The notes beneath the pieces are model-generated. The model was not told the origin of the DNA. It worked only from the letters and a program-made list of their open reading frames with translations, and made no database searches. From Aequorivita sublithincola DSM 14238 (GTDB taxonomy: Bacteria > Bacteroidota > Bacteroidia > Flavobacteriales > Flavobacteriaceae): a stretch of DNA of 64,000 nt. A program made the position numbers and the translations under genes. This document shows, in pieces, positions 9,071 through 28,625 of this stretch (the stretch's first letter is position 1; each line of letters opens with the position of its first letter). The stretch lies in NCBI RefSeq assembly GCF_000265385.1, contig NC_018013.1, positions 1,763,001 through 1,827,000 of the forward strand. The letters run 5' to 3'.

Positions 9071-9148
9071 AAAGAATCGCTAATCATTTTAATAAGGCAT
9101 TAATAAAAATTGCCTCACTATTTTGTCTTACAACAAGTAATAAATTAT

Positions 9149-9179
9149 AAAGAAAGCTCCTTTGAAAGGAGCTTTCTTT
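9149..9179. terminator. Bidirectional terminator hairpin
   Basis: AAAGAAAGCTCC, loop TTTGAAA, GGAGCTTTCTTT: a perfect 12-bp stem flanked by A- and T-rich sequence. It sits between convergent genes (stops at 9070 and 9187) and can serve both. Confidence 0.85.
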
Positions 9180-9186
9180 ATAAAAA

Positions 9187-10776
9187 TTAATATTTGGTTA
9201 TTTTAATTGTTGCTTTTTTTCCATCCATAGTTGTTACTGTAGCTAAATAAAGTCCTGCTGCCCCAATAATTTCAACATCTAGATTTTGTGTGTTTTTATA
9301 AGTTGAAATTGAAACAACTTGCCCCAACATATTTAGAATGGTAACTTTGCTTTCAGAAAAGCTTTCTCCAAGATTTATAGTGAATCTACCGTTGTTTGGA
9401 TTTGGATATGCGGTAATTGATGTGCCAAAATTATTTTTTGAAACTCCTAGAATTGCTGAGGTGGTTTTGAACACCCAATAATCATCCAAGCCTCTGCTGT
9501 TCTCGCTTTTATCACCAGAGATATTTGAATCTGAAGAACAAAACATTATGAAATTACCATCAGCGGTTGGAAGGATGTATGGACCGCTTTCATCGGCAGA
9601 ACCTCCTATGGAATTTTGAGAAAGAATATCTCCAGCTGCATTTAGTTTTACCAGCCAATAATCGTAACCGCCATTGCTGTTTTCGGTTTTGTCGCCAGAA
9701 ATGTTACTGTTGCTATAGCCGGCGATCATATAGGTGCCATCTGCGAGTTGTTTTACATCGCGCGCATAGTCTATGCCGCTACCGCCAATGGTGTTTTGCC
9801 ATACCAAGTTGCCACTACCGTCCAGTTTCAATATCCAGTAGTCGTAATCGCCCTGAGAATTTTCGGTTTTATCGCCAGAGATATTTGATTTTGAATAGCC
9901 ACCCAAAAGATATCCGCCATCTGCGGTTTGTGCCATATTACGGAACGCGTCTTTATCGCTGCCGCCAAAGGTTTTGTTCCATTGTATATTACCGTTGGAA
10001 TCCAGTCTTACTATCCAGTTGTCGCTTTCGCCTCTGCTTATTTCCGTTTTATCTCCAGAAATCCCTGAAGTTGAAGAACCACCAATAATAAACCCGCCAT
10101 CTGCAGTTTGGAATCCTACTTGAGGACGGTCTACTAAGCTTCCACCAATACTTTTTTGCCAAACGATAGCACCCGAACTGTCTAATTTCATGGGCCAATA
10201 ATCACGCTGTCCTTTTGTGGGGACTGTTTTATCGCCGCTTATATCGCTATCTGAATATCCACTTACAAAATAACCGCCATCTGTGGTTGGGACCACGTAG
10301 GTGTCAAATTCAGGTTGGGCGCCGCCGTAGGTTTTTTGCCAAACGATAGCTCCAGAACTATTTAATTTCAATATCCAGTAATCGAAATCGCCGCGAGAGT
10401 TTTCGGTTTTATCCCCAGAAATGTTGGAATCTGAACTTGAGCCCACAATGTATCCACCATCGGAAGTTTGTTTTACAGAGATTAAAAAGTCTTCCCCGCT
10501 GCCGCCAATGGTATTTTGCCACATAATATTGCCAGAATCGTCAATTTTCACGATCCATATGTCTGTACCGCCGTTGCTATTTTCAGTTTTTTCGCCGGAA
10601 ATATTGCTTGTTGAATAGCCTCCGATGATGAAGCCTCCATCTGAGGTAGGTTCTAAGACTGTGGAGAAATCGGTACCGCTACCACCAATGGTTTTTTGCC
10701 AAAGAATGGCGGGGTCTTGTGAAAAGGCGCGTATGGCGCATAGTAATAATACGAATAAGATAATTTGAGTTTTCAT
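9187..10776 (-). CDS. T9SS-exported seven-repeat protein, paralogue 1
   Basis: 529 aa. Signal peptide MKTQIILFVLLLCAIRAFSQ. Seven repeats of about 55 residues, each with 'DGGyiigGySdSnISGDKTEnS.G..DyWivKLd.sGnivWq.tiGGsg.D', probably forming a seven-bladed propeller; the conserved SGDKTE loop could bind metal (inference). The last ~75 residues (AYPNPNNGRFTINLGESF ... KATIKITKY) are a T9SS type A sorting domain. It is one of three consecutive 529-aa copies, with a fourth more distant member at 19.9 kb. Own upstream ECF-like promoter (10805-10843) and terminator (9149-9179). Ligand or role unknown; cell-surface display is inferred from the sorting domain. Confidence 0.88.
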   Translation of the reverse strand: MKTQIILFVLLLCAIRAFSQDPAILWQKTIGGSGTDFSTVLEPTSDGGFIIGGYSTSNISGEKTENSNGGTDIWIVKIDDSGNIMWQNTIGGSGEDFLISVKQTSDGGYIVGSSSDSNISGDKTENSRGDFDYWILKLNSSGAIVWQKTYGGAQPEFDTYVVPTTDGGYFVSGYSDSDISGDKTVPTKGQRDYWPMKLDSSGAIVWQKSIGGSLVDRPQVGFQTADGGFIIGGSSTSGISGDKTEISRGESDNWIVRLDSNGNIQWNKTFGGSDKDAFRNMAQTADGGYLLGGYSKSNISGDKTENSQGDYDYWILKLDGSGNLVWQNTIGGSGIDYARDVKQLADGTYMIAGYSNSNISGDKTENSNGGYDYWLVKLNAAGDILSQNSIGGSADESGPYILPTADGNFIMFCSSDSNISGDKSENSRGLDDYWVFKTTSAILGVSKNNFGTSITAYPNPNNGRFTINLGESFSESKVTILNMLGQVVSISTYKNTQNLDVEIIGAAGLYLATVTTMDGKKATIKITKY

Positions 10777-10804
10777 TTTAATTTGGTTTAAGGATTATAA
10801 GTGT

Positions 10805-10843
10805 ATATCGAAATTGCTGTGGAAATGTCATCAATTTTTTTAG
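10805..10843 (-). promoter_or_regulatory. Shared ECF-like promoter element, copy a
   Basis: Minus strand: A-rich tract, GATGACA (-35, complement of 10826-10832), 15 bp, CGATAT (-10, complement of 10805-10810). It lies 28 bp upstream of paralogue 1's ATG. The spacing is 1 bp longer than in other copies. Confidence 0.55.
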
Positions 10844-10903
10844 CGGGAATAGAAAAGGTAGAATTGAAGCGCGAATAGCGTAGAAAAAATATTTTTATAA
10901 AAC

Positions 10904-10931
10904 AAAATGCTCCATATCTCAGGAGCATTTT
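10904..10931 (-). terminator. Terminator of paralogue 2
   Basis: Perfect 10-bp stem AAAATGCTCC / GGAGCATTTT with an 8-nt loop, followed on the minus strand by a T-rich tract. 33 bp after the stop of the gene at 10965. Confidence 0.85.
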
Positions 10932-10964
10932 CACATTAATAACCTAAAATGAAATAGAAAGAAA

Positions 10965-12554
10965 TTACTGTTTCGTTATTTTAATGGTCGCTTGTTTTCC
11001 GTCATTAGTTTTAACGGTTGCAAGATAAATACCTGCGGCACCGTTAATTTCCACATCAAGCGTGTTTGTGTTTTGGTAGTTTGTAGATGAAACAACTTGA
11101 CCAAGCATATTATTGATGATGACATTTATTGCTGAAAAACTTTCGCCCAGCTTTATGGTGATTCTACCATTAGTCGGATTTGGATAAGCACTTAGTGATG
11201 GCCCAAAAGTATTTTTAGCAACTCCAAGAATTGCTGGAGTAGTTTTAAACACCCAGTAATCATCCAAGCCTCTACTATTTTCACTTTTATCGCCTGAAAT
11301 ATTGGAATCTGAGGAACAGAACATAATATAATTGCCGTCATTCGTTGGAAGAATATATGTGCCGCTTTCATCGGCAGAACCGCCAATGGAATTTTGGGAA
11401 ATAATACCGCCAGAAGTATTTAAGCTTACCAACCAATAATCATAACCACCATTGCTGTTTTCGGTTTTGTCGCCAGAAATGTTGCTGTTGCTCCAACTGG
11501 CAATAACATATGTACCATCAGAAATTTGCATCACATCCCGGGGATAGTCTATACCGCTACCGCCAATGGTATTTTGCCACACGATGTTTCCACTGCCGTT
11601 CAATTTTAATATCCATTGATCATAATCACCCTGTGAGTTTTCAGTTTTGTCGCCAGAGATGTTTGATTTTGAATAGCCGCCCACTAAGTAGCCACCGTCT
11701 GCTGTTTGTACCATATTACGAAGTACATCACTATCATTGCCGCCATAGGTTTTGTCCCATTGCACATTTCCGCTACTGTCAAGTTTTACGATCCAGTAAT
11801 CGTTGCCACCACGGGTATTTTCAGTTTTGTCTCCCGAGGCTGGCGAATTTGAAAATCCTCCTATTATAAACCCACCATCATTGGTTTGAAAAGCCGCTGA
11901 CGGACGGTCTACCAAACTACCGCCGATACTGTTTTGCCATACAATGGCACCGCTGCTGTCCAGTTTAAGCGCCCAAAAATCGCGCTGACCGTTTGTTGGG
12001 TCGGTTTTGTCTCCACTAACTTCACTGTCGGAATAGCCACCTACAAAGTAGCCTCCATCTGGGGTTTGAACCACGTAATTGTCAAATTCGGGTTGATTGC
12101 CACCGTAGGTTTTTTGCCAGACAATGTTACCAGAAGCATTCAGTTTTAATATCCAGTAATCTAAGCCGCCACGAGAATTTTCGGTTTTGTCGCCCGAAAT
12201 ATCTGAGTCTGATCCTGCACCTACTATATAACCACCATCTGAAGTTTGTTTTATAGAGATTAGATAATCGTCCCCGCTCCCGCCAATGGTGTTTTGCCAC
12301 ATAATGTTGCCGGAAGCGTCAAGCTTAACGATCCAAATGTCGATGGCACCGTTGCTGTTTTCGGTCTTCTCGCCAGAAATGTTGCTGGTGGAATAGCCCC
12401 CGATGATGTATCCTCCGTCTGAAGTAGTTTCAAAAGCAGTGGAAAAATCGGTATCGCTGCCACCGATGGTTTTTTGCCAAATAATGGCGGGGTCTTGTGA
12501 AAAGGCGCGTATGGCGCATAGTAATAATACGAATAAGATAATTTGAGTTTTCAT
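10965..12554 (-). CDS. T9SS-exported seven-repeat protein, paralogue 2
   Basis: 529 aa with the same design as paralogue 1: an identical 20-residue signal peptide, seven SGDKTE-type repeats and a T9SS sorting domain (AYPNPTNGRITIKLGESF ... KQATIKITKQ). Its first ~75 bp and upstream spacer are almost identical to those of paralogue 1. Its last ~110 bp and downstream spacer are almost identical to those of paralogue 3. The central repeats differ more, which points to gene conversion centred on the spacers. Separate promoter (12583-12621) and terminator (10904-10931). Confidence 0.88.
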   Translation of the reverse strand: MKTQIILFVLLLCAIRAFSQDPAIIWQKTIGGSDTDFSTAFETTSDGGYIIGGYSTSNISGEKTENSNGAIDIWIVKLDASGNIMWQNTIGGSGDDYLISIKQTSDGGYIVGAGSDSDISGDKTENSRGGLDYWILKLNASGNIVWQKTYGGNQPEFDNYVVQTPDGGYFVGGYSDSEVSGDKTDPTNGQRDFWALKLDSSGAIVWQNSIGGSLVDRPSAAFQTNDGGFIIGGFSNSPASGDKTENTRGGNDYWIVKLDSSGNVQWDKTYGGNDSDVLRNMVQTADGGYLVGGYSKSNISGDKTENSQGDYDQWILKLNGSGNIVWQNTIGGSGIDYPRDVMQISDGTYVIASWSNSNISGDKTENSNGGYDYWLVSLNTSGGIISQNSIGGSADESGTYILPTNDGNYIMFCSSDSNISGDKSENSRGLDDYWVFKTTPAILGVAKNTFGPSLSAYPNPTNGRITIKLGESFSAINVIINNMLGQVVSSTNYQNTNTLDVEINGAAGIYLATVKTNDGKQATIKITKQ

Positions 12555-12582
12555 TTTAATTTGGTTTAAGGATTATAAGTGT

Positions 12583-12621
12583 ATATCGAAATTGCTGTGG
12601 AAATGTCATCAATTTTTTTAG
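12583..12621 (-). promoter_or_regulatory. Shared ECF-like promoter element, copy b
   Basis: Minus strand: A-rich tract, GATGACA (complement of 12604-12610), 15 bp, CGATAT (complement of 12583-12588). Same arrangement as copy a, within an almost identical 188-bp spacer. Confidence 0.55.
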
Positions 12622-12681
12622 CGGGAATAGAAAAGGTAGAATTGAAGCGCGAATAGCGTAGAAAAAATATTCTTATAAAAC

Positions 12682-12709
12682 AAAATGCTCCATATCTCAG
12701 GAGCATTTT
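12682..12709 (-). terminator. Terminator of paralogue 3
   Basis: Same 10-bp AAAATGCTCC / GGAGCATTTT hairpin as at 10904-10931, within the duplicated spacer, 33 bp after the stop at 12743. Confidence 0.85.
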
Positions 12710-12742
12710 CACATTAATAACCTAAAATGAAATAGAAAGAAA

Positions 12743-14332
12743 TTACTGTTTCGTTATTTTAATGGTCGCTTGTTTTCCGTCATTAGTTTTAACGGTTGCA
12801 AGATAGATACCTGCGGCACCGTTAATTTCCACATCAAGCGTGTTTGTGTTTTTATAGTTTGTAGACGAAACAACTTGGCCGAGCATATTATTGATGGTGA
12901 CATTTGTTTCTGATAAACTTTCGCCTAGTTTTATTGTGAATCTGCCATTTGTCGGGTTTGGAAAAGCGCTAATTGAAGTTGCAAATGTATTTTTTGAAAT
13001 GCCCAGAATTGCAGGTGTTGTTTTGAATACCCAATAGTCATCCATTCCTTTACTATTTTCGCTTTTATCGCCTGAAATATTACTATCTGAAGAACACGCC
13101 ATAATAAAATTACCATCTGCAGTTGGAAGGAGATAGGGAGTAGATTCGTCTGCAGAACCTCCAATGGAGTTTTGTGATAGTATGTTTCCGGAAGCATCCA
13201 GTTTAACCAACCAATAGTCATAGCCGCCGTTGCTATTTTCAGTCTTGTCGCCACTTAAGTTGGAGTCAGAATAACCGGAAATCATATAAGTGCCATCGGC
13301 AAGTTGTTTTATATCGCGCGGATAATCTATTCCGCTGCCGCCAATAGTGTTTTGCCAAACAATGTTTCCGCTTACGTCCAATTTTAAAATCCAGTAATCA
13401 TAATCTCCCTGTGAGTTTTCTGTTTTTTCACCAGAAATGTTAGATTTAGAATAACTGGCTATCAAAAAACCTCCGTCTGCTGTTTGTATCATATCGCGCA
13501 GAACATCGCTATCGCTGCCGCCATAAGCTTTGTCCCATTGAACGTTACCTCCGCTGTCTAGTTTTACGATCCAATTGTCGGAATCGCCTCTGCTAGGTTC
13601 TGTTCTGTCGCCAGAAATACCAGAAGTAGAAAGTCCACCAATCATATAGCCACCATCTGATGTCTGAAATGCAGCTTGTGGTCTATCTACCAAACTGCCT
13701 CCAATACCGTTTTGCCAAACTATATTCCCGTCACTGTCCAGTTTTAGTGCCCAATAATCGCGTTGGCCGTTACTGGCTTCGGTTTTATCCCCAGAAATAC
13801 CAGAGTCGGAATAGCCGCCCACAAAATAACCTCCATCTGGAGTTTGTGAAACGCGATCGTCAAATTCAGGTTGAGCGCCGCCATAGGTTTTTTGCCAAAT
13901 AATATTGCCCGAAGCATCGAGTTTCAGAATCCAATAATCAAGTCCGCCACGAGAATTTTCGGTTTTGTCGCCAGAGATATTGGAATCTGAGCTTGCGCCA
14001 ACAATATAACCACCATCATCCGTTGTTTTTATGGTAAGAAGAAAATCGTCGCCGCTACCACCAATGGTATTCTGCCACATAATATTACCGGAATTGTCAA
14101 TTTTAACGAACCAGAGATCTATCTGTCCGTTTGAATTTTCGGTCTTGTCACCAGAAATGTTGCTAGTGGAGAAACCTCCAATAATATAGCCACCATCTGG
14201 AGTAGCCTCGAAAGCATTTACGAAATCAGCATCGCTGCCACCGATGGTTTTTTGCCAGATGATAGAGGGATCTTGGGAAAAGGCTGTAAAAATGCCTAAT
14301 AATAATGCGAAAAGGGTAATTAGAGTTTTCAT
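12743..14332 (-). CDS. T9SS-exported seven-repeat protein, paralogue 3
   Basis: 529 aa. Signal peptide MKTLITLFALLLGIFTAFSQ, related to but distinct from that of paralogues 1 and 2. Seven repeats of the SGDKTEnS / DyWivKLd type, then a T9SS type A sorting domain (AFPNPTNGRFTIKLGES ... ATIKITKQ) nearly the same as in paralogue 2. Promoter element at 14361-14398 has the standard 14-bp spacing; terminator at 12682-12709. It is the upstream-most of the tandem trio and may be the source of the others. Confidence 0.88.
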   Translation of the reverse strand: MKTLITLFALLLGIFTAFSQDPSIIWQKTIGGSDADFVNAFEATPDGGYIIGGFSTSNISGDKTENSNGQIDLWFVKIDNSGNIMWQNTIGGSGDDFLLTIKTTDDGGYIVGASSDSNISGDKTENSRGGLDYWILKLDASGNIIWQKTYGGAQPEFDDRVSQTPDGGYFVGGYSDSGISGDKTEASNGQRDYWALKLDSDGNIVWQNGIGGSLVDRPQAAFQTSDGGYMIGGLSTSGISGDRTEPSRGDSDNWIVKLDSGGNVQWDKAYGGSDSDVLRDMIQTADGGFLIASYSKSNISGEKTENSQGDYDYWILKLDVSGNIVWQNTIGGSGIDYPRDIKQLADGTYMISGYSDSNLSGDKTENSNGGYDYWLVKLDASGNILSQNSIGGSADESTPYLLPTADGNFIMACSSDSNISGDKSENSKGMDDYWVFKTTPAILGISKNTFATSISAFPNPTNGRFTIKLGESLSETNVTINNMLGQVVSSTNYKNTNTLDVEINGAAGIYLATVKTNDGKQATIKITKQ

Positions 14333-14360
14333 ATTTTGATTGTTTAAGGATTATATAGGT

Positions 14361-14398
14361 ATATCGAAATTGTGTTTAAAGGTCATCACTTTTTTTAG
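14361..14398 (-). promoter_or_regulatory. Shared ECF-like promoter element, copy c
   Basis: Minus strand: CTAAAAAAAGT then GATGACC (complement of 14381-14387), 14 bp, CGATAT (complement of 14361-14366), 28 bp before the ATG of paralogue 3. Confidence 0.6.
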
Positions 14399-14545
14399 TG
14401 AAATGTGAGTAGTAGGAAGTCAGAAGAAATGGAACAGGGGGAATGTACTCTAGTCAATATAATAAAAAATGCCCCATATTTCAGGGGCATTCTGGTTGGT
14501 AGATCAACCCCACAAGCTATTGAAAGATCATTGTTTTATAATCCT
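14378..14545. repeat. Duplicated intergenic cassette, copy 1
   Basis: About 168 bp nearly identical to 17845-18012, with only a few base differences by eye. It spans the -35 part of the downstream gene's promoter, a spacer, the terminator, and the last codons of the upstream T9SS gene. A diverged third copy lies at about 28437-28560. Confidence 0.8.
14468..14491 (-). terminator. Terminator of the adhesin-like gene
   Basis: 8-bp stem AATGCCCC / GGGGCATT with loop ATATTTCA, followed on the minus strand by TTTTTTATTATA. A second small stem (GGTTG / CAACC, 14494-14509) lies between it and the stop codon. Confidence 0.85.
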
Positions 14546-16357
14546 AAAAGTATTAGACCCTTCTTTAGCAGTGTTTACTTTTACGAAATATATTCCTGTG
14601 GAAGCATCTATTTCTTGTGTTATTGTTTTTGCCGAAGCGTATTTTTCCGAAGAAATAAGTTGACCGAGCATATTGTAAATCTGAACAGTAACATCTGTAT
14701 ATTCCCTACCCATTTCTAACGTGAAATTGCCGTTTGTTGGATTTGGAAATAGCTTTACATTGCTCAAGCTATTTTCTTCCGTGCCCAAAACGATGTTGCT
14801 TACTTTTAGCGTAACACTATTCCCTCCACAAATTACGTCGAAAGTATAAACGTGGGAATCATAATACGCAGTAACAGTTGCTGGTAAATTGCAAACTACA
14901 GCACGGTTGACAGAATATAACACTGTAAATTCATCTTCCAAGACTGGTGCGAAGCCAAGATCTACCACTATGGTGCCATTCATATCAAATGAACCTCCAT
15001 TGTCTGCCTGTATTATATCATATTCGGTTTCAGGAGTATTTCCGTTTATATCCACTACAAGTCTCGCGTCTCCGTCTTGCCTGTAACCATTGTAAATAAA
15101 CATTTTGTTTGCTCCAGGGCCGGACTTAAATATCCCGTTGTTGATTAGAGGCTGAACAATGTTTAAATTTAGCGTTCCAGTCCCCAAAAAAGTTCCATCG
15201 ATGGTATTGTTGACTAGAACGCTACCAATGGCAAAACTAAAATTATGAGATCCGTAATTAAACAGACCACTATTTATGAAATTCACTCCCAAGCCTACAT
15301 TATTTGTGGTCACTACAGTGCCATAGTTTTCTAGTGTTTCTGCACCCGTATTCCCATTAAAACCTAAGCCGAGATTGAGAACACCAGCGGCTTCGTTTAT
15401 AATGTGAGAACCGTTCCATAAATTCCAAGATGTATTATTTGCGGATAATACGCTATTGAATTCTCCATTGTTAATGATCTCTAAATTTTCAATCGTTTTG
15501 CCCAGGCCGCCGCCATCATTGGTAACGTTGAATTTGGAGTTGTTTATAAGCGTTCCACCTCCGGAAATGTTTCCGAAATAAAAAGTTAATCCATTTCCGC
15601 CTATTTCATTTATTAAAGTACCGTCAATAATAAAATTGTATCCTTGCAAACCAAAAGCTCCATCTACTTGGCCACTAAAAGTGCCTCCCAAGGTAAAATT
15701 ACCTAGAGTCAGTTTTGATCCTGCAACCACATTATAGGTGCCGCCATTAAGGGTATTTGCCGAAGGGCTAAGACCAGTATGAAAATCTAAGTTACCATTT
15801 TCTACACTTATGGTTCCGTTGTTGTTTTCTATGATTGTAAGTACAGAAAGACTGAAGGAAGTTATACTTCTTATAACTCCACCATTGTTTATTATTTTGT
15901 CATCAATAGAGTCTGAGTTCATTCCCAAACCATCAAATGTAATTGTGCCCGTGGCAGTATTTGTAATGGTAGTTCCACCAGATATTACTGTAGGGTTATT
16001 AGGCACCTCGCTTAACAATGTGGCATTGTTAATTATAGAAATATTGGACGTTCCTCTACTAAGAGCCGCAACACCAGAAAAGGAAAATACTGAATTGTTA
16101 ATAAGTGTTCCTCCACCATTGATAGTACCGTTAATAAAAATGACAGTTCCTTCATTTGTTACTGTCATTCCTGTGGGAATTGTAGCATTAAAGTAATTAT
16201 TCGGCACTTGAGGTGGGTTCCAATTATTCGGGTCATGCCAAGTTGTTCCATCGCCATTACCGGTAAATACAATAAATGATAAAGTAGTTCTTTCTTGTGC
16301 TGAAATAGTTAAGCAAAGAATGCTCAAAATCGAAAAAAATAGTAATTGTTTCATCAT
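14528..16357 (-). CDS. T9SS-exported beta-helix adhesin-like protein
   Basis: 609 aa. Signal peptide MMKQLLFFSILSILCLTISA. It starts with a TWHDPNNWNPPQVPN motif, common at the N-terminus of secreted Bacteroidota proteins with sheet-like repeats. A long Gly/Asn-rich region follows with repeated 'GGGTLINNS', 'TIENLEIINNG' and 'GTLNLNI', typical of a right-handed parallel beta-helix. The T9SS type A sorting domain (LFPNPTNGNFTLEMGREY ... STGIYFVKVNTAKEGSN) is of the same subtype as in the genes at 17.9-23.0 kb. Adhesion or matrix binding is inferred from the fold; no catalytic motif was seen. Promoter at 16423-16460, terminator at 14468-14491. Confidence 0.82.
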   Translation of the reverse strand: MMKQLLFFSILSILCLTISAQERTTLSFIVFTGNGDGTTWHDPNNWNPPQVPNNYFNATIPTGMTVTNEGTVIFINGTINGGGTLINNSVFSFSGVAALSRGTSNISIINNATLLSEVPNNPTVISGGTTITNTATGTITFDGLGMNSDSIDDKIINNGGVIRSITSFSLSVLTIIENNNGTISVENGNLDFHTGLSPSANTLNGGTYNVVAGSKLTLGNFTLGGTFSGQVDGAFGLQGYNFIIDGTLINEIGGNGLTFYFGNISGGGTLINNSKFNVTNDGGGLGKTIENLEIINNGEFNSVLSANNTSWNLWNGSHIINEAAGVLNLGLGFNGNTGAETLENYGTVVTTNNVGLGVNFINSGLFNYGSHNFSFAIGSVLVNNTIDGTFLGTGTLNLNIVQPLINNGIFKSGPGANKMFIYNGYRQDGDARLVVDINGNTPETEYDIIQADNGGSFDMNGTIVVDLGFAPVLEDEFTVLYSVNRAVVCNLPATVTAYYDSHVYTFDVICGGNSVTLKVSNIVLGTEENSLSNVKLFPNPTNGNFTLEMGREYTDVTVQIYNMLGQLISSEKYASAKTITQEIDASTGIYFVKVNTAKEGSNTFRIIKQ

Positions 16358-16422
16358 ATTTGGTTTTAAGGATTAATTGAAAAAGTTTTTATGCAGTCCA
16401 TTTAAGGCTGGTTGCTGTAATC

Positions 16423-16460
16423 CTAACGGAACTTTTGAAAAAGGTCATCACTTTTTTTAG
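16423..16460 (-). promoter_or_regulatory. Shared ECF-like promoter element, copy d
   Basis: Minus strand: CTAAAAAAAGT, GATGACC (complement of 16443-16449), 14 bp, CGTTAG (complement of 16423-16428). It is 65 bp from the ATG at 16357, giving a longer leader than copies a-c. Confidence 0.65.
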
Positions 16461-16643
16461 AGAAAAGAAAAAAGGTAAAAGATAGGAGAGGCAGGGCTAA
16501 AAGGAATCAGGAAAATAGGTTTAAAGAGAAAACTACTTGAGAAGAATGAAGAAAGGAAAAGGCTTATGTTCCGAATCTTTCGAAATTTGGTCAAAGGGAG
16601 AATATATTGTGGACGAGGTTGAATTGTGAGCTTTGGAAATGCC
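16461..16643. other. Spacer without recognisable feature
   Basis: Purine-rich AT spacer between promoter copy d and the end of the next gene. No ORF, hairpin or repeat that I can support. Confidence 0.5.
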
Positions 16644-16686
16644 GAATACCGAATTATTATACCGAAATTTTTATATTCCGGTATTC
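16644..16686 (-). terminator. Possible terminator of the six-repeat propeller gene
   Basis: GAATACCG (16644-16651) is complementary to CGGTATTC (16679-16686), with an AT-rich loop of 27 nt that contains another ATACCG. It lies 30 bp after the stop at 16717. Weaker than the other terminators. Confidence 0.35.
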
Positions 16687-16716
16687 AACATTTATTCTGT
16701 GGCAACCTAAAGCTCC

Positions 16717-17766: not shown

Positions 17767-17827
17767 GGTGTTTAATTTAGATTAATGGTCAGTTATAAGA
17801 GCTGTTAAATGCAAGCTCTTTAATCTT

Positions 17828-17865
17828 AAGACGTAATAAAATGAAAAGGTCATCACTTTTTTTAG
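17828..17865 (-). promoter_or_regulatory. Shared ECF-like promoter element, copy e
   Basis: Minus strand: CTAAAAAAAGT, GATGACC (complement of 17848-17854), 14 bp, CGTCTT (complement of 17828-17833). 61 bp upstream of the ATG at 17766. Confidence 0.65.
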
Positions 17866-18012
17866 TGAAATGTGAGTAGTAGGAAGTTAGAAGAAATGGA
17901 ACAGGGGGAATGTACTCTAGTCAATATAATAAAAAATGCCCCATATTTCAGGGGCATTCTGGTTGGTAGACCAACCTCACAAGCTATTGAGGGATCATTG
18001 TTTTATAATCCT
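17845..18012. repeat. Duplicated intergenic cassette, copy 2
   Basis: Nearly identical to 14378-14545: promoter -35 half, spacer, terminator, and the last codons of the upstream gene. Confidence 0.8.
17935..17958 (-). terminator. Terminator of the three-gene T9SS unit
   Basis: AATGCCCC / GGGGCATT stem with 8-nt loop, then TTTTTTATTATA on the minus strand. 36 bp after the subtilase stop; the only terminator seen between 17.9 and 23.0 kb. Confidence 0.85.
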
Positions 18013-19863: not shown

Positions 19864-19921
19864 GACTTTAAAAATTTTAAGATTATACGTTTATATTGAA
19901 ATCGTTTTGAAATTAGAAAAT

Positions 19922-21508: not shown

Positions 21509-21520
21509 AATTACATCTCT

Positions 21521-23017
21521 TTAATTTTTAATGACTTTTAAGGTTTTATTTGCCCCTTGGGCGGTACTAATCTTTACGAAATACATACCTGCTACGCTTG
21601 TGATCTTCTTTTCTATTGTTTTTGCCGAAGCGTATTTTTCCGAAGAAATAACTTGGCCTAGCATATTATAAATCTGTACGGCTACTTCTGTATATTCCTT
21701 ACCTAAATCTATAGTGAAATTGCTGTTTGATGGGTTGGGATAGAGGGTTGCGAATTTCAAATTATTGCCGGCAACACTTAAAGGGCCATCAAATTTATAT
21801 ACCCTCATCTGTCCAGAATCTTGTCCGTTGTCATCACGCTGTGGGAATCCAATGCTTATGGTATTTCCTGTACCGCTGAATTCTAGGCCAAAGCCTCCAT
21901 TGTCTCCTGCCTGGCCATAAATTGTTTGTCCCAATTGCACCCAATCAGTTCCATTAAACCGAAACATTCTTGTATTACCACTTAGGTCATTGGCATTTCC
22001 CTGACCCAGCAAGCCTTTTATGGCAATTATATTTCCTTGCTTGGTTATGGAAACTCTAATCCCAATCCTATCGCCATCTGCCATTCCATCTATACTTGAA
22101 CCTTTTTGCACCCACTGGGTTCCGTTCCAGGAAAAAATTCTTGCTCTTCCTATACGATCACCATTGCCATTTTTAAATTCACTTTCAGCTGAAATAATTG
22201 TATTGCCATCTGCACTAATGTCAACGGATAGTCCAAAATTGCCATTGGTTTGTTCGCCTGGAATATCATCTCCCTTCGCAACCCAATCGGTCCCATTAAA
22301 TTCGTAGATACTTACTTCACCATTGCCATTGCTTATAGGATCTGCATAAAGCGCGCCTGCAACAAAAGTATTTCCATCTGCGCTTAATTTTACGGAATAC
22401 CCAAATTGATCATCCATTGCCTCACCATTTATATTTGAACCCAATTTGGCCCACGCACTCCCATTCCAACCAAAAACCCGTACCTGCCCTGTGTTGAGAC
22501 CTTGCGTGCGTGAATCTATGGAACCAATGGCTACCCGATTGCCATCTGCACTCATACTAACCGCGCCGCCACTTTGATCATTTGGGGTTTCACTGGGTAT
22601 GTTTACTCCGCGCTGAACCCAGTTTGTACCATCAAATACAAATACTCTTACATTCCCAGAACCGTTTCCCGTATCATCATTTAATGGTGCGCCGATAGCC
22701 ATTGTATTGCCATCCGCACTAAGACTTACTCTGCTGCTGTGGTCTTCTGCAGCTTCACCATTAATGTCCAATCCTTTTTGGGACCAAGATGTTCCATTGT
22801 AGGTAAACACCCGAACCTGGCCCGCATTGCTTCCTGCATCGTCATTATATTGCGCTCCCACAGCAACAGTATTGCCATCTGCACTAAGGGAGGCCCAGCG
22901 ACCGAAATCGTCTTGAGCGGCTTTACCATTTATATCATTGCCAAGCTGTACCCAATTTTGGGCTGAAACGGTCAAACATAAAAGGCTCATTATTGCAAAA
23001 AATAAAAATCGTTTCAT
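21521..23017 (-). CDS. T9SS-exported repeat protein (WxxxGxxIxGexxxDxxG type)
   Basis: 498 aa. Signal peptide MKRFLFFAIMSLLCLTVSA. About seven repeats of the form 'W.q.G.dI.GeaadD.fG.svslSadGntvaiGa..nDd.gn..GqvRvf.ynGt.W', a common FG-GAP/propeller-like repeat in Bacteroidota surface proteins. T9SS sorting domain LYPNPSNSNFTIDLGKEY ... MYFVKISTAQGANKTLKVIKN. First gene of a three-gene unit, with the promoter at 23091-23128 and the only terminator after the subtilase. Confidence 0.85.
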   Translation of the reverse strand: MKRFLFFAIMSLLCLTVSAQNWVQLGNDINGKAAQDDFGRWASLSADGNTVAVGAQYNDDAGSNAGQVRVFTYNGTSWSQKGLDINGEAAEDHSSRVSLSADGNTMAIGAPLNDDTGNGSGNVRVFVFDGTNWVQRGVNIPSETPNDQSGGAVSMSADGNRVAIGSIDSRTQGLNTGQVRVFGWNGSAWAKLGSNINGEAMDDQFGYSVKLSADGNTFVAGALYADPISNGNGEVSIYEFNGTDWVAKGDDIPGEQTNGNFGLSVDISADGNTIISAESEFKNGNGDRIGRARIFSWNGTQWVQKGSSIDGMADGDRIGIRVSITKQGNIIAIKGLLGQGNANDLSGNTRMFRFNGTDWVQLGQTIYGQAGDNGGFGLEFSGTGNTISIGFPQRDDNGQDSGQMRVYKFDGPLSVAGNNLKFATLYPNPSNSNFTIDLGKEYTEVAVQIYNMLGQVISSEKYASAKTIEKKITSVAGMYFVKISTAQGANKTLKVIKN

Positions 23018-23090
23018 AATATTTGGTTTTAAGGGTTATTGAATTTTTTTTTGAACTTTTTACAGCATGGCTGAAGCTAGTTTCTATTAA

Positions 23091-23128
23091 CTAACGAGGG
23101 TAGTGAAAAAGGTCATCACTGCTTTTAG
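23091..23128 (-). promoter_or_regulatory. Shared ECF-like promoter element, copy f
   Basis: Minus strand: CTAAAAGCAGT, GATGACC (complement of 23111-23117), 14 bp, CGTTAG (complement of 23091-23096). 73 bp upstream of the ATG at 23017. Confidence 0.65.
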
Positions 23129-23259
23129 AGAAAAGATGAAAGAATAAAGAAAAAAGAGGGATGCTGGATTCTGGTAATTGGAAGTTGGAGGTTGGATGCT
23201 GGGTGACAGACTAAAGGGTTTGAATTCTAAAGAAACTTGATGCAGCTATAACGGCTTCG

Positions 23260-26200
23260 TTACGTATTCTTGGCGTTCTTTTTTTTCAGACGAAAGATAA
23301 TAAATAACGCAACCAGTACTAACCCGACAACCCACCACCAAATTGGATTTAATGAATGCTGTAATTGAATGGGAGCAGTATCGCCAATCAATACCAAGCC
23401 TGCCCAATATTGAGGTGATGCAGCACGACCATCAGCAGTGGATAGGTATTTTAATTTGGCTTTTTTAAGAGCTTCATCCTTTGGGAGTCCTTCGGCAAGA
23501 AAATCATAGAAATAGCCAACTATCTGTGAGCTCGAAATTTCATCGATTGCCCAAAGGCTTGTCAAGATACTTTCACTGCCGGCATAATTAAAAGCGTGGG
23601 CAAGAGAAATCATTCCTTCGCCGGGCTGATAGGTTGGTTTTCCAGTTTCGCAAGCCGTTAGAATGGCGAGGTTAGAGGATAGGTCTGTATTGTAAATCTC
23701 ATAACTGTACAAGGAGTTTTCATCATAACTCTTTGGTCCTTCAAGAGTTTTTGCAAAAATAAGCCGAGAGAATTCAGGACTTATATTGTTGCTTTCGCCA
23801 TGGGTGCCAATGTGGATTATTTTGTGCTCTCCGGCCTTATTCTGAAAGACGGTTTTGGAAGCATTTTCATTTAAAAAAGAAGTGCCATCAAAAATTTTAG
23901 AATATTCCTCAGCCAGTTTTACACTGCTGGGTTGCGATAACAGCGTAAGGTAGGTAGCATCCTTATCTAGGGAATCGGTTATACTGATTTTATAATCATC
24001 CTTCATCTCTTTGCTAAAACCTGGGGCGAATGCCACAAAATTGTTTGAGAACATTTTGGGCTTTTTATCTTCATTCAAGAGCAACAGGCTAAAATTATAC
24101 GAAATGGTATATCTTGCCAAAAGGCTGTTTGTGGCAAGTTCATTATAACTTTTTATTTTGGAGGGTGTAAGGGTCTCGAAACTTAAATTGAAAAGCGCGC
24201 CGTCTGGTAGGATGATTATCTTTTTAGTATGGATTAAGTTTTCCAAAGGTTTCCAAAGATTTCCATATAACTCGTAAAGCAGAGCTGATTCTTCTTCTAA
24301 AGAAGGCTGTGGTTTATTTAGGTATTCAATGTGATTTTTGACTGACTCGAAATCCAATTTTATGAGGTTCCGATTTTCCTTGTCCAAAACCATGGCGTAC
24401 AATATTTCGTCAATAAAGAAATAGCGGATAACCGTAGTGTTTTCGGGAATGTATTTTTGAAGATCTTGGAGTGAAACGTCCAAAGTGGCAAACTTCATTT
24501 TATAATATTTTGGATATGCAATTTTTAGGGAATCCAAAAAAGAGTTATAAATGTCGTTCGCCCCAAGATAGCTTTGAAATGATGAAGTGGAATCTTCAAT
24601 GCTGGCTGCAATGCTTACAGCATCTTTTTTTAGCTTGCTTTCACGCTTTACTATCCTTTCGGGTACATCAGCAAAGTTGATTTCATCCTGTACCATCAAT
24701 TTTGATCGAATACCGTAATAGACACTGTTTTCTTGAGTTTCAATAAGTTTGGTTAGGTATTCTTTATTTTTCGTTTGAATGTAAAGGTTGCTATAAAGCT
24801 CTTTTGTGAAACTGTACAATTCCAAAAAGTTAGAATATAATACATTAACATTATCATCTTTTGAAATTAACGCTTTTTGGTCTTCAAGAATTTTAAAAGC
24901 ATGCTCCATATTCTTCAGTAGCTCTTTTAAAAAGATGGAGTCCTTAACGGTTTGTTGTTTATAGCGCGCTTTTGAATTTTCCAGAATTAACAGCGGCTTT
25001 AGGTACGTGAGCTTTACGGCATTAAGGCTCGTGGTCTTGTTTTGGGCTAGTTTGTCAATAAAGGAAATTCCCTTTTCACTCCACTCCAAGGATTTTGGAT
25101 ACTCGCTGACGGTGTAATAAACTTTAGCCAAATTCAGCATATGCGAAATTAGGTCGTTATTGTTCTCACCTCCGTTAGCTTTTAAGTAATTATACGCATT
25201 TAACGCAGTGCTAATTGCAGCTTCCGGCTTATTGTTTTTTGCTAGAAACATTGCTTTATCGATGGCAAAATCCAAATAGGTATCATCTAAGTTTTCGCCC
25301 AAGGCACTTTTGTATAATTTATCAGCATCATTATAGGTTTTTTCCGCTAGCGCTATTTCCCCTTTTTGTTCATAGCAGGTTGCAAGGCTTCCTGTGGCGA
25401 TTGCCTGCCAGAAGATATCTTGGCCAGAATCTGTCTCATATATTTTTAACACCTTTTGGAAGGACGCGATAGCTTTATCAAATTCCTTTAAAGACATTTG
25501 AGTCTGCCCCAACAAAACAATGGAATGCGATTTTTCAGGATCACTATCTTGATACAATTGGTCCCTTTTATGATAGATATAATTTACAAGTTCATAAGCA
25601 CGATTTACGTTGCCAATGTTATTGTAAAGTGTTGACAGGTTTGAAATACCTATCCATAGAAGGCGTTTACTATCTTCAACCGTAGCAGCATCCTTAGACT
25701 CCTTGATTACAAAAGAACAGTCCTTTATTATTTTTTCGAGCGTTTGTTTCGCTTCGGAAATATTTCCCCGGGCTTCCATTATCTGTGAAATGTTCAACTG
25801 GATACCAGCCGCGGAATATATTTTGTAAATGGAATCTTTATCTGCTTTTTGAAGACTGCTTATTGACTTTTCAAAATAATATTGGGCACTGTCCAATTTT
25901 TGGGAGCGCCACATCAAAACACCAAAAAAATTATTTACATCTGATAATCTGTTATAGTCCTTTTCTTTGGATTTCAAGAAGTGGTATTGTGATTTTTTAC
26001 ACTGATGAGTGGCATCTACATATTTTCCAGCGAAATAATAACTACGCGTTAAGACGTAATATGCCTCACCAATTTCATTTTGGGTTGCATCGTTTACAGA
26101 AAGAATAGTTTGCAATGATTCTTGGGATGCCTCAAATGCTTTTTGAGTTTCACCCAAATCTTGATATAGGTAGGATAGATCGTGTAATGCTATATATTGA

Positions 26201-26520
26201 GCACGTTTGCTAGCGCCTAACTTCTTTAGATTTTCAAAAAAAGTTTCCGCTTGTTTAACAGCATTATACTGATTGCTTTTTAAAAGTGAAATCTGTCCCA
26301 CATACTCGATGTACTGGGCGAGGGAATCTATTTGTTTCGCTTTTTTAAAAGTTTCAATTTGGGATTGAAGTTCGGAATCTGCCTGCTTAACCTGATCGTT
26401 TAAAAGGTAAGAGTCAATTAATGCTGTTCCTGTACTTAGTTTTTCTTGGGCACTTAATTTTGTTGGGGAGAGCAAAACGAAAAAAGCCATGAAAAAGCAA
26501 ATTTTGTATTGTTGCCCCAT
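23260..26520 (-). CDS. Membrane-anchored TPR-CHAT domain protein, copy 1
   Basis: 1086 aa. Signal peptide (MGQQYKICFFMAFFVLL...LSA), then about 600 residues of helical TPR repeats, a helical linker, and a C-terminal CHAT domain, a caspase/separase-like cysteine peptidase fold. The probable His-Cys dyad is His907 in HIGTHGES and Cys957 in LTACETG. A transmembrane segment (about 1059-1077, WWWVVGLVLVALFIIF) and a basic tail KKKNAKNT end the protein, so TPR and CHAT should face the periplasm. Third gene of the sigma factor / TPR membrane protein / CHAT unit, 191 bp after the second gene. The substrate is unknown. A 1099-codon relative lies at 29.9 kb. Confidence 0.87.
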   Translation of the reverse strand: MGQQYKICFFMAFFVLLSPTKLSAQEKLSTGTALIDSYLLNDQVKQADSELQSQIETFKKAKQIDSLAQYIEYVGQISLLKSNQYNAVKQAETFFENLKKLGASKRAQYIALHDLSYLYQDLGETQKAFEASQESLQTILSVNDATQNEIGEAYYVLTRSYYFAGKYVDATHQCKKSQYHFLKSKEKDYNRLSDVNNFFGVLMWRSQKLDSAQYYFEKSISSLQKADKDSIYKIYSAAGIQLNISQIMEARGNISEAKQTLEKIIKDCSFVIKESKDAATVEDSKRLLWIGISNLSTLYNNIGNVNRAYELVNYIYHKRDQLYQDSDPEKSHSIVLLGQTQMSLKEFDKAIASFQKVLKIYETDSGQDIFWQAIATGSLATCYEQKGEIALAEKTYNDADKLYKSALGENLDDTYLDFAIDKAMFLAKNNKPEAAISTALNAYNYLKANGGENNNDLISHMLNLAKVYYTVSEYPKSLEWSEKGISFIDKLAQNKTTSLNAVKLTYLKPLLILENSKARYKQQTVKDSIFLKELLKNMEHAFKILEDQKALISKDDNVNVLYSNFLELYSFTKELYSNLYIQTKNKEYLTKLIETQENSVYYGIRSKLMVQDEINFADVPERIVKRESKLKKDAVSIAASIEDSTSSFQSYLGANDIYNSFLDSLKIAYPKYYKMKFATLDVSLQDLQKYIPENTTVIRYFFIDEILYAMVLDKENRNLIKLDFESVKNHIEYLNKPQPSLEEESALLYELYGNLWKPLENLIHTKKIIILPDGALFNLSFETLTPSKIKSYNELATNSLLARYTISYNFSLLLLNEDKKPKMFSNNFVAFAPGFSKEMKDDYKISITDSLDKDATYLTLLSQPSSVKLAEEYSKIFDGTSFLNENASKTVFQNKAGEHKIIHIGTHGESNNISPEFSRLIFAKTLEGPKSYDENSLYSYEIYNTDLSSNLAILTACETGKPTYQPGEGMISLAHAFNYAGSESILTSLWAIDEISSSQIVGYFYDFLAEGLPKDEALKKAKLKYLSTADGRAASPQYWAGLVLIGDTAPIQLQHSLNPIWWWVVGLVLVALFIIFRLKKKNAKNT

Positions 26521-26711
26521 TTTGGATTTTTTCTTAAATATAGCAATAAAATTTTATTCATTAACATTTCTTTAAGAATAATAGCATTTTCTTTCCGCTT
26601 CAAGATTTATACTTAAAGAATATCTATAGTAGAAATTCTTTTTAAGAACGAAAAACGGTTAGCGACACTATGCAAACTGGAATCGCGTAACCTAATTTTC
26701 TAAAGCGGCAT

Positions 26712-27464
26712 TTATTCTTCTTGAAGTAATTTTAGGAGCTTGGTATTTCGATCTGAAGGGTATTTATTCAACAATATTTTGGCTTCCTCGAATTCCCCTT
26801 TCTTTATTTTTGCCAATGCGGTATAATAAGCAGCATCTTCTTTAAAGATACCTTGTTGGAAACGTGTTTCATTTTGAAGAAATTTTAATGATTTGTCCGC
26901 ATTGCCCAATGCCAAATTTGCTACTCCCAAAAAGTAATTTACAGTGTCGTTTTCTGGGTTATCCTTTATTAAAACTTCCCATTTCGCAATGGCTTCATTG
27001 TAATTTTCTTGTTTATAATCCAGCATTCCTTCATAAAATTCTAAGTTGTTTGTAGCACCCATTTTCAAGGGCAACCCAATGTCTGGCTTAAAGTTTTCAG
27101 CAAAGATTTTTTCTGAGGTGGAGTTGCTTTGCATCATCCAAAAAATACCTATTAATCCAACCATTACTGCGGCAATAGAATACCATAAAATCTTGGAATT
27201 TAAGTTGCGGGCAGGGAGCTTTCTTACATCCGTACCTCTTTCTGCAACTCGCACTTGACTGTGAAATTCTTTAATTTTTGATTGCCGAATGCTGTCCTCA
27301 ATTTCTTCCTTTACTTTTTTAATGTGTTCTATTTTTTTCTTTACGTCTGGGATTTGAGTAAGTTTTTCATTCAACATTGTTGCATTATCTGAAGCCTCGT
27401 TTTGGTCCAGATAAGTTTCAATTATATCCCATTCTAATGGGTTTATGTCAATTTGGGATTTCAT
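26712..27464 (-). CDS. Single-TM TPR protein, putative anti-sigma factor
   Basis: 250 aa. N-terminal ~100 residues are cytoplasmic, charged and helical, opening with a segment like those of Bacteroidota anti-sigma partners (LEWDIIETYLDQNEAS). One transmembrane segment (about 92-111, LWYSIAAVMVGLIGIFWMM) is followed by an extracytoplasmic TPR-like region (about 140-250). The position directly after an ECF sigma gene and the single-TM topology suggest it holds the sigma factor at the membrane; this is inference, and no zinc-binding HxxxCxxC anti-sigma motif is seen. The gap to the sigma gene is 169 bp and is mostly filled by a 7-bp tandem array. Confidence 0.65.
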   Translation of the reverse strand: MKSQIDINPLEWDIIETYLDQNEASDNATMLNEKLTQIPDVKKKIEHIKKVKEEIEDSIRQSKIKEFHSQVRVAERGTDVRKLPARNLNSKILWYSIAAVMVGLIGIFWMMQSNSTSEKIFAENFKPDIGLPLKMGATNNLEFYEGMLDYKQENYNEAIAKWEVLIKDNPENDTVNYFLGVANLALGNADKSLKFLQNETRFQQGIFKEDAAYYTALAKIKKGEFEEAKILLNKYPSDRNTKLLKLLQEE

Positions 27465-27498
27465 TCTTTAAGTTTACTTTTTTTATTTTATTTTTACT

Positions 27499-27645
27499 GA
27501 CTACTGACTACTGACTACTGACTACTGACTACTGACTACTGACTACTGACTACTGACTACTGACTACTGACTACTGACTACTGACTACTGACTACTGACT
27601 ACTGACTACTGACTACTGACTACTGAATACTGACTACTGACTACT
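27499..27645. repeat. Tandem array, 21 copies of GACTACT
   Basis: 147 bp = 21 x 7 bp; only unit 19 (27625-27631) differs (GAATACT). On the transcribed strand the unit reads AGTAGTC. The array begins inside the sigma gene: its last three codons and stop lie in it. It fills most of the gap to the next gene. Since 7 is not a multiple of 3, TAG occurs in every frame once per 21 nt. Copy-number change would alter only the intergenic distance. Confidence 0.95.
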
Positions 27646-28212
27646 TTTTTCTAAGGCCAATTCCTTTAACTTTTGAATGCACCTATATTTCTTATTCTTT
27701 GCAGAGGCTTCTTCTATTTTTAGACTTTCCGCAATGATCCGCAGCGACAGTTTATCAAAATAAAACTGCGTAAGCAAATCCTTGCAGGCTTGTCCAAGAT
27801 TTTCAAAAGCGGTCAAGGTTATGGATAGTTGTTCGTCTTCTTTTTCTAACTCGCCTATTTGTGTTGTTTCGTCTGCTTCAAGTTTATACATATTTTCATC
27901 TATAGAAACTGTTTTCTTTTTGTTCACATTTCTAGTTAAGTCTATCCATTTATTTTTAGCGATTGTAAATAGATATGCCTCTATTTCTTTTTTATTTTTT
28001 GGTCTGAATTTTCCCGTGCTCAATTTTTTCCAACAAGCAAAATATGCTTCCTGAAAAACATCGTTGGCATTATCTAAAGTGCCTCCATTTTTAAGAATGT
28101 AATATTTGGTTTTAGGATATTCAGTAATATAAAACGCTCTAATGGGTGCTTCTTTATTATTTAAAAAAGCGTCCAGCAATGCAAATTGATCTTGAGTAAG
28201 TGTATCTTCCAT
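27634..28212 (-). CDS. ECF-type RNA polymerase sigma factor
   Basis: 192 aa. Region 2 (about 30-100) includes NDVFQEAYFACWKK and AYLFTIAKNKWID, the core-binding and -10 recognition helices. Region 4 (about 128-185) is a helix-turn-helix: ACKDLLTQFYFDKLSLRIIAESL then SAKNKKYRCIQKLKEL. It is first in an operon with a TPR membrane protein and a CHAT protein. Its upstream region carries the same promoter-like element (28324-28359) as the neighbouring T9SS genes, consistent with autoregulation. Its last three codons and stop fall in the 7-bp tandem array. Confidence 0.9.
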   Translation of the reverse strand: MEDTLTQDQFALLDAFLNNKEAPIRAFYITEYPKTKYYILKNGGTLDNANDVFQEAYFACWKKLSTGKFRPKNKKEIEAYLFTIAKNKWIDLTRNVNKKKTVSIDENMYKLEADETTQIGELEKEDEQLSITLTAFENLGQACKDLLTQFYFDKLSLRIIAESLKIEEASAKNKKYRCIQKLKELALEKSSQ

Positions 28213-28323
28213 AGAATAGGTACGGAAATATACAATTTTTTTTAGTCAATGTTGCGACTCAATTTAATTACGATTTATGATCTATCTTCAAATTAAACTT
28301 CATGATTTACCTCGTTTAATTGG

Positions 28324-28359
28324 ATAACGAAGGAATGAAAAAAGGTCATCAATTTTTAG
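28324..28359 (-). promoter_or_regulatory. Shared ECF-like promoter element, copy g (sigma gene)
   Basis: Minus strand: CTAAAAATT, GATGACC (complement of 28344-28350), 14 bp, CGTTAT (complement of 28324-28329). About 111 bp upstream of the sigma ATG. Identical in arrangement to the T9SS gene promoters. Confidence 0.6.
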
Positions 28360-28447
28360 AGGAAAGAGGAAAGAATAGAGAAAAAAGACGGATGACCGAG
28401 GCCAGATGACAGAAAAGATGAGTTCGTTAATCTTTACTGTAATAAAA

Positions 28448-28471
28448 AATGCCTCATATTTCAGGGGCATT
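28448..28471 (-). terminator. Degenerate terminator of the lost T9SS gene
   Basis: AATGCCTC / GGGGCATT hairpin with the same loop ATATTTCA as at 14468 and 17935 but one G-T pair. It sits 37 bp after the remnant's stop codon. Confidence 0.6.
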
Positions 28472-28508
28472 TCCGGTTGGTTTACAACCTTACAAGCTAT
28501 TGAACGAT

Positions 28509-28560
28509 CTATTGTTTTATAATCCTTAAAGTGTTTGATCCTTCTTTAGCAGTGCTTATT
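28509..28560 (-). pseudogene. 3' remnant of a T9SS-exported protein gene
   Basis: Reading the minus strand to the TAG at 28509-28511 gives ISTAKEGSNTLRIIKQ, the exact ending of the sorting domain of the subtilase at 17.9 kb (one conservative difference). Upstream of that the frame is lost within about 50 bp, and a promoter-like element (28593-28625) follows directly. An internal deletion seems to have removed the signal peptide and body, leaving both ends. Confidence 0.8.
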
Positions 28561-28592
28561 TCTCGTCCCACTGTTTTTAGAACTATATTCCT

Positions 28593-28625
28593 ACATCGAA
28601 ACAGTTTTGAAATGTCATCGCTTTA
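28593..28625 (-). promoter_or_regulatory. Relic ECF-like promoter element, copy h
   Basis: Minus strand: GATGACA (complement of 28613-28619), 14 bp, CGATGT (complement of 28593-28598), with the upstream A tract decayed. It faces the T9SS remnant and probably drives nothing now. Confidence 0.45.

Follow-up and report, generated by a model that had tools for sequence, protein, structure and literature searches.

Two classes of predicted sigma factor promoters in a type IX secretion gene array beside a sigma/anti-sigma/TPR-CHAT operon of Aequorivita sublithincola

An array of genes for cargo of the type IX secretion system (T9SS) in Aequorivita sublithincola DSM 14238 lies beside an operon for the extracytoplasmic function (ECF) sigma factor sigA, a predicted membrane anti-sigma factor and a TPR-CHAT protein, and comparison of eight promoter-like sites in this region suggests that two sigma factors share the array between them. 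The stretch analysed (the window) is 64,000 nucleotides long and covers positions 1763001-1827000 of a single-contig genome of 3.52 Mb. The local sigma factor probably reads half of the array, and a distant one, sigB, probably the remainder. We put this overall reading, a two-sigma array together with a sigA/anti-sigma/CHAT operon, at a probability of about three in four. The original prediction for the region had one local circuit governing the whole array, should the neighbouring sigma factor read the sites, and this is not supported: the three SBBP units (9187-14332) and a gene remnant carry sites of the second class, which track the distant sigB.

Results

Eight sites of two classes in the window

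The pattern GATGACM-N14/15-CGW occurs eight times in the window, always on the minus strand, against a mean of 0.27 and a maximum of 2 in 100 shuffled sequences. Six of the sites precede T9SS units, which hold altogether eight genes with the T9SS C-terminal domain (CTD), one precedes the ECF sigma gene, and one precedes a CTD remnant. The spacer is N14, or one base longer (N15) in the two near-identical copies. The original prediction had these eight minus-strand sites and this spacing, and both stand, the low end of each match lying 3 nt above the coordinate given there. It had also expected the motif to stand out from a random scatter over the genome, which is true of a tight form only: the loose pattern is close to background genome-wide (27 matches versus 23 in the reversed control), whereas TGATGAC-N15/16-CGWTNW gives 10 sites versus 1. 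Because the loose pattern reached only background, tighter classes were adopted.

By the letters of the -10, the eight sites split evenly into class A (CGTT/CGTC; 16426, 17831, 23094 and 28327) and class B (CGAT; 10808, 12586, 14364 and 28596), a distinction absent from the original prediction. The site at 14364 mixes a class A-type GATGACC with a class B -10. ECF promoters have a -35 ending in AC and a -10 starting with CG at a fixed spacing, and the eight sites are very probably promoters of ECF sigma factors. The predicted promoters are:

28327-28350, minus strand: class A promoter of sigA (GATGACC-N14-CGTTA); at the same position in 5 of 7 other sigA genomes, with a CATT variant in the other 2
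23094-23117, minus strand: class A promoter of the three-gene T9SS unit 23017-17995; motif match
17831-17854, minus strand: class A promoter (CGTC) of the NHL-repeat T9SS gene; the homologue in genome G172 has a class A CGTT
16426-16449, minus strand: class A promoter of the T9SS gene 14528-16357; motif match
14364-14387, minus strand: class B promoter (GATGACC, -10 CGATAT) of the SBBP T9SS gene 12743-14332; motif match, tight genome pattern
12586-12610, minus strand: class B promoter of the SBBP T9SS gene 10965-12554; motif match
10808-10832, minus strand: class B promoter of the SBBP T9SS gene 9187-10776; motif match
28596-28619, minus strand: class B promoter before the CTD remnant and a terminator-like hairpin; same unit in G170 and G172

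Site classes and sigma factor content in the genus

A second sigma gene, sigB (1357744-1358328), lies about 432 kb away with its own anti-sigma gene, and its product is 38% identical to sigA. It has a class B promoter in this genome, in G162 and in 13 of 13 fetched neighbourhoods. Of the 28 congeneric genomes compared, 8 hold sigA and 22 hold sigB (scored by match to sigA, E <= 1e-20); 5 have both and 3 neither. Class A sites number 18 in the eight sigA genomes versus 2 in the 20 others, with 6 matches of the reversed pattern in the full set of 28. Each of the 22 sigB genomes has at least two class B sites, 94 in all; the six genomes without sigB hold 3, and none of the six has two (reversed pattern, 17 over all 28). 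The sigA promoter itself is class A in six of the eight genomes and reads GATGACCTTT-N11-CATTAT in G174 and G157.

Homologous targets follow the sigma content as well. G152, a single-contig genome with sigA and no sigB, holds five class A sites and zero class B sites of the pattern searched. In G152, a class A site lies 41 nt from the start of a T9SS gene for about 464 amino acids (M23 peptidase plus CTD in the present genome), and 14 homologues in other genomes have class B sites at 38-43 nt; a lipoprotein gene has one class A site in G152 versus six class B sites in other genomes (homology in both cases by blastp clustering, not synteny). SBBP T9SS genes with class B promoters occur in 12 other genomes, all counted outside the present window, and 11 of these lack sigA, which argues that the three SBBP units of the window answer to sigB. 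Position 63 of the sigma factors is Lys in 8/8 sigA and Asn in 13/13 sigB and in 91 of 99 family rows, some of which are identical. This position follows the region 2 segment, and this part of ECF sigma factors (region 2) reads the -10. Taken across these genomes, we consider it highly likely that sigA binds class A sites and sigB class B sites. An origin of sigA and sigB by duplication within the genus is not claimed, as the sigma tree makes each of them one clade (100/100) and does not settle whether these are sisters.

The sigA operon

The module comprises three genes:

27634-28212, minus strand: ECF sigma factor sigA, 192 amino acids; TIGR02937 69.3 bits (cut-off 42.9), Sigma70_r2; in 8 of 28 congeneric genomes
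26712-27464, minus strand: predicted anti-sigma factor with helical N-terminus, transmembrane helix, loop and TPR; Pfam TPR, AlphaFold model, role from position and topology
23260-26520, minus strand: TPR-CHAT protein, 1086 amino acids, His907/Cys957 dyad; PF12770 132.5 bits

sigA is a small two-region protein above the cut-off of the sigma70-ECF model, as expected of a group IV sigma factor, and its own promoter with fixed -35/-10 spacing (28327-28350 and relatives) points to autoregulation. That the sigma gene lies under its own promoter had been proposed before, and the class A site at 28327 agrees with this.

The gene next to sigA very probably encodes an anti-sigma factor, as predicted from its position and topology. 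Its AlphaFold model (mean pLDDT 83) has helices at 8-74, a helix at 91-111, a loop and a TPR domain. The helix at 91-111 is taken as the membrane span, one per protein, which would leave the N-terminal domain in the cytosol and the TPR domain in the periplasm. The juxtamembrane loop has the consensus DPGLPTTM, conserved in 70 aligned sequences, and reads DIGLPLKM in the window. A Foldseek search with the model found TPR-type proteins among the 50 matches listed, and none of those 50 matched the N-terminal part.

The third protein has a signal-peptide-like N-terminus, a C-terminal hydrophobic helix as anchor, and the TPR plus CHAT domain with His/Cys dyad that marks separase/Csx29-like proteins, the dyad being invariant across 38 sequences. 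Its model resembles Csx29 and separase in Foldseek, and in a second-look alignment Csx29/Craspase chains are the best matches. In a search of PDB sequences with the CHAT alignment, only profile positions 34-555, the TPR part, were matched (best 60 of 77). The protein is predicted to be periplasmic, membrane-anchored and protease-like, and we propose it as a candidate protease for the anti-sigma factor. PADLOC gave zero matches for the four sigma, anti-sigma and CHAT proteins.

The gap between sigA and the anti-sigma gene is filled at 27495-27645 by a 7-bp tandem repeat (21.6 copies, 98% matches), which might tune anti-sigma expression. Elsewhere this gap is 143 nt with a different 7-bp repeat (G170, by eye) and 23, 23, 20, 9 and 9 nt in five more genomes, and the open reading frames (ORFs) overlap in G152. 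A TTGTATATTTCC stretch immediately 5' of sigA (28224-28235), with similar ones before many related sigma genes, is perhaps a housekeeping promoter for basal sigA expression. Outside the module proper, a further CHAT gene follows:

29876-33175, minus strand: second TPR-CHAT protein; PF12770 145.9 bits

By eye, this gene is flanked by mevalonate decarboxylase-like and kinase-like genes. The second CHAT gene is found near sigA in six of the eight sigA genomes, this one included, and the six group together in a quick tree. The CHAT proteins adjoining sigA in G152, G174 and G157 fall near this second clade in a FastTree tree, not with the window CHAT.

Operon and promoter in related loci

A search with the alignment of the anti-sigma factor only gave 171 related stretches in named genomes. 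The 80 best were analysed, some of which are the same records as an earlier set of 20 loci. We take them by genus placement to be mostly Flavobacteriaceae, plus two Parapedobacter and one Chitinophagaceae metagenome-assembled genome. The order sigma, TPR/transmembrane anti-sigma, TPR-CHAT is kept in 80/80 loci, with the sigma gene directly upstream and CHAT sequence downstream, and the conserved gene order that the original prediction looked to in related genomes is thereby found. Within the 80, L228 has its sigma gene as two ORFs plus a CHAT fragment, L235 has a split CHAT gene, and some loci are cut by contig ends.

Over the 1,531,407 bases of these loci, GATGAC-N15-CGAT occurs 155 times and the N16 form 10 times; other spacings from 10 to 22 give 0-4 matches, and reversed and scrambled controls at N15 give 0. 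GATGAC-N15-CGTT occurs only twice, so class B is the usual form in the family. Among the 165 class B matches at N15/16, 114 lie at most 400 nt from an ORF start and 20 are without such an ORF. A site stands upstream of the sigma gene with only co-directional ORFs between them in 68 of the 80 loci, 28 of them with no ORF between. A pattern ending in CGATRTA was counted in 149 family genomes and is present in 18 of the 22 with the sigma factor (E <= 1e-30) versus 16 of the 127 without it; outside the genus it is present in 16 of 20 sigma genomes. The matches number 50 in sigma genomes and 18 in the others, and the reversed control gives 5 and 14. A lipoprotein-like protein of about 380 amino acids without Pfam match (L163:8209-9369 and homologues) is often encoded between the promoter and the sigma gene.

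Predicted targets

Ten first genes other than sigma genes follow the intergenic sites of either class in this genome, and by hand count 8 of them carry a T9SS CTD; left out were the CTD remnant, two matches inside ORFs (class B at 1243814, class A at 638872) and a further match at 3391737; the whole genome has 115 CTD matches above cut-off. Within the genus, the proportion is 37 of 53 complete non-sigma downstream proteins. In the 80 loci, by contrast, only 12 of 90 non-sigma targets carry a CTD versus 45 of 883 other ORFs, a modest enrichment for which a whole-family regulon of T9SS cargo was dropped. T9SS cargo is thus a theme of the genus and not a rule for the family. Exported-looking proteins make up 85 of the 90 targets versus 344 of the 883 other ORFs by a crude home-made signal-peptide rule. 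The earlier claim of surface-protein targets is supported, for targets that are mostly exported and in the genus mostly T9SS cargo. Few named families turned up in 88 of the 90 targets (two of more than 900 amino acids were left out of the scan): T9SS CTD 11, beta-lactamase fold 7, peptidase S74 6, S8 4, YadA head 4 and fn3 4. A recurrent class B target is an FHA plus trypsin-like protein, a signalling and not a surface protein; in this genome, genes for PP2C and a Ser/Thr kinase come after it (L072:5619-10143). Its homologues stand behind class B sites in eight genomes including this one, hinting at a phospho-signalling arm within the sigB regulon.

Gene array and remnant

The T9SS genes of the array are:

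21521-23017, minus strand: T9SS cargo with FG-GAP repeats; PF14312, PF18962
19922-21508, minus strand: SBBP-type T9SS cargo, second gene of the class A unit; TIGR04183, NF047494 below cut-off
17995-19863, minus strand: T9SS cargo, subtilase, third gene of the class A unit; PF00082, PF18962
16717-17766, minus strand: T9SS cargo with NHL repeats; PF01436, PF18962
14528-16357, minus strand: T9SS cargo without named passenger domain; PF18962 only
12743-14332, minus strand: SBBP-type T9SS cargo; open frame and translation, CTD in genome search
10965-12554, minus strand: SBBP-type T9SS cargo; open frame and translation, CTD in genome search
9187-10776, minus strand: SBBP-type T9SS cargo; TIGR04183, NF047494 below cut-off

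Similar hairpins, each with a T-run behind it, close several T9SS units at 9145-17960. This gives the units the look of being transcribed separately, and their common 3' sequence could serve recombination between units. At 28400-28620 a class B promoter stands before some 15 codons from the end of a CTD and a hairpin resembling a terminator, with no gene; the arrangement is kept in G000, G170 and G172 and possibly yields a short sigB-dependent RNA.

Discussion

Our comparison shows the promoter character of the sites, their two classes and the conservation of the operon. The proposed circuit is an autoregulated envelope-signalling operon of sigA, a single-pass anti-sigma factor with a periplasmic TPR domain and a membrane-anchored periplasmic TPR-CHAT protein. 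Free sigA would read class A (GATGACCTT-N12-CGTT) at its own promoter and three neighbouring T9SS units, and sigB would read class B (GATGAC-N15/16-CGAT) at its own promoter, the three SBBP units of the array and other genes, mostly for exported proteins. The array would then be two interleaved regulons with a common -35, told apart by the -10. Sigma release would most likely start with cleavage of the anti-sigma factor by the CHAT protein in the periplasm, at or near the conserved juxtamembrane loop; cleavage itself we put forward tentatively, at rather less than even odds.

The assignment of promoters may be right while the CHAT protein binds the TPR anti-sigma factor as a sensor or scaffold, or serves as a protease for other envelope proteins, and this has close to an even chance. 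sigB and its anti-sigma factor do without a nearby CHAT gene (none beside sigB here, none within the fetched sigB neighbourhoods), TPRs in both anti-sigma and CHAT proteins suit docking, and the catalytic competence of the CHAT protein is only predicted. An operon order kept in every locus and an invariant dyad speak instead for a protease that acts on the anti-sigma factor, as does a fold shared with a protease whose known target is a sigma inhibitor. In the type III-E CRISPR system, cleavage of the sigma inhibitor in the set Csx29 (TPR-CHAT), Csx30 and CASP-sigma is demonstrated, according to the parts of PMC10028731 consulted. As that text describes it, the genes for the TPR-CHAT protease, the sigma inhibitor and the ECF sigma factor likewise lie together, with sigma sites inside their own locus. 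The window CHAT differs in its signal peptide and membrane anchor, in its small membrane TPR inhibitor and in its mostly exported-protein targets, and cleavage, demonstrated for Csx29 in the text consulted, is here proposed. Among the neighbours in 9187-33175, Pfam found no Cas7-11 beside the CHAT gene (no search for it was made elsewhere in the genome).

The candidate may also be compared with regulated proteolysis of the RseA/DegS and RsiW type, in which a membrane anti-sigma factor has cytosolic and extracytoplasmic parts. Such proteolysis is named in the consulted part of PMC10028731. Likewise, our model has a two-sided membrane anti-sigma factor and a proposed extracytoplasmic, membrane-anchored protease, but this candidate is caspase/separase-like and not DegS-like. 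The transmembrane anti-sigma factor DdvA (8rw5, 8rot), which we take to be a Myxococcus protein, ranks 10 and 14 in the Foldseek listing for the CHAT model, a listing with separase and Csx29 at its head and many TPR proteins in it; known to us by its entry titles, it matches the CHAT model and not the anti-sigma model.

An ECF sigma factor tied to type IX secretion is also found in Porphyromonas gingivalis, where, in the consulted part of PMC4800418, SigP regulates T9SS component genes through the PorXY two-component cascade. By that description the present module differs in having cargo genes as targets and an anti-sigma/CHAT operon as input. The Flavobacterium psychrophilum SM6 promoters are ECF-like with a CGT box in the -10 region, the only part compared, and have T9SS genes and one sigma/anti-sigma pair among their targets (PMC9723704, in part). 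The targets named there are T9SS components, and CHAT is unmentioned in the text consulted. Literature searches for CHAT with ECF sigma, anti-sigma, Bacteroidetes or Flavobacteria returned only CRISPR protease work and one death-like-domain paper, from sources in which subscription papers are mostly uncovered, and CHAT with separase gave Craspase work and unrelated papers among the matches listed. The CHAT partner had been put forward as new; for the ECF module these searches gave no description, and the CRISPR-linked set Csx29/Csx30/CASP-sigma offers a precedent for a TPR-CHAT protein directed at a sigma inhibitor.

That sigA alone reads all eight sites, accepting either -10, is unlikely. The eight sites do lie in one array beside sigA with a common -35, and some cross-talk among ECF sigma factors is common. 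In genomes with sigA only, however, class B sites are absent (G152) or occur once without a downstream ORF (G174, G157), and neither their presence at least twice in every sigB genome nor the SBBP class B promoters of genomes without sigA fits a sole reader. Recognition of GATGAC-N15-CGAT/CGTT by a DNA-binding regulator other than an ECF sigma factor is very unlikely: the tie to the sigma factors is purely comparative, but a -35 that ends in AC and a -10 that starts with CG, a fixed distance apart, suit ECF promoters, and the motif precedes the sigma gene itself in most loci. Least likely of all is that the sites are not promoters and belong to a cassette of upstream tract and CTD 3' end that duplicates or recombines, given that, despite the similar 3' sequence and hairpins of the units, the upstream tracts at 14364 and 17831 that are identical but for one over the 36 bases compared, and the persisting CTD remnant, the spacing is fixed while spacer letters vary, the motif precedes different genes at the same spacing in many other genomes, as the original prediction of promoters rather than repeats would have it, and the classes track sigma content.

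Several points weigh against the two-sigma reading and its proposed input. Support for the promoter assignment is comparative and drawn from sequence. The 28 genomes share ancestry, so that their counts are not independent and p-values overstate the support. In the 80 loci, 31 of the 165 class B matches lie inside ORFs of at least 120 amino acids and some are thus chance matches, and the low share of CTD proteins among the targets there counts in the same direction. Of the 18 class A sites, the one at 638872 in this genome is inside an ORF, the CGTC site at 17831 falls outside the class A pattern counted, and the CATT variant at two of the eight sigA promoters occurs once per genome there. G165, scored as lacking both sigma factors, is only 69% complete and holds a single class B site, which stands before a gene homologous to a class B target, so that this genome may have an overlooked sigB. 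As to the input, the fetched sigB neighbourhoods indicate that not every such pair needs an adjoining CHAT, the window loop departs from the DPGLPTTM consensus at two of eight letters plus one variable letter, and the conservation of the loop could come from folding or docking.

A wider hypothesis, slightly more tentative than cleavage in the window, is that the periplasmic, membrane-anchored TPR-CHAT protein of flavobacteria is the site-1 protease of an ECF anti-sigma factor, cutting its DPGLPTxM loop, that the CRISPR circuit is one branch of a wider TPR-CHAT/anti-sigma/sigma theme, and that in one genus with two such sigma factors the code is split by the -10. Envelope signalling would then be connected, outside CRISPR, with a caspase-like protease fold. 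The results give a promoter code and a target list for an ECF module in 171 related stretches, for which no description was found in the literature searched. They also present a natural case of two related sigma factors whose promoters differ in -10 letters, and since homologous targets bear the other code in a one-sigma genome, the evolution of promoter specificity becomes directly testable.

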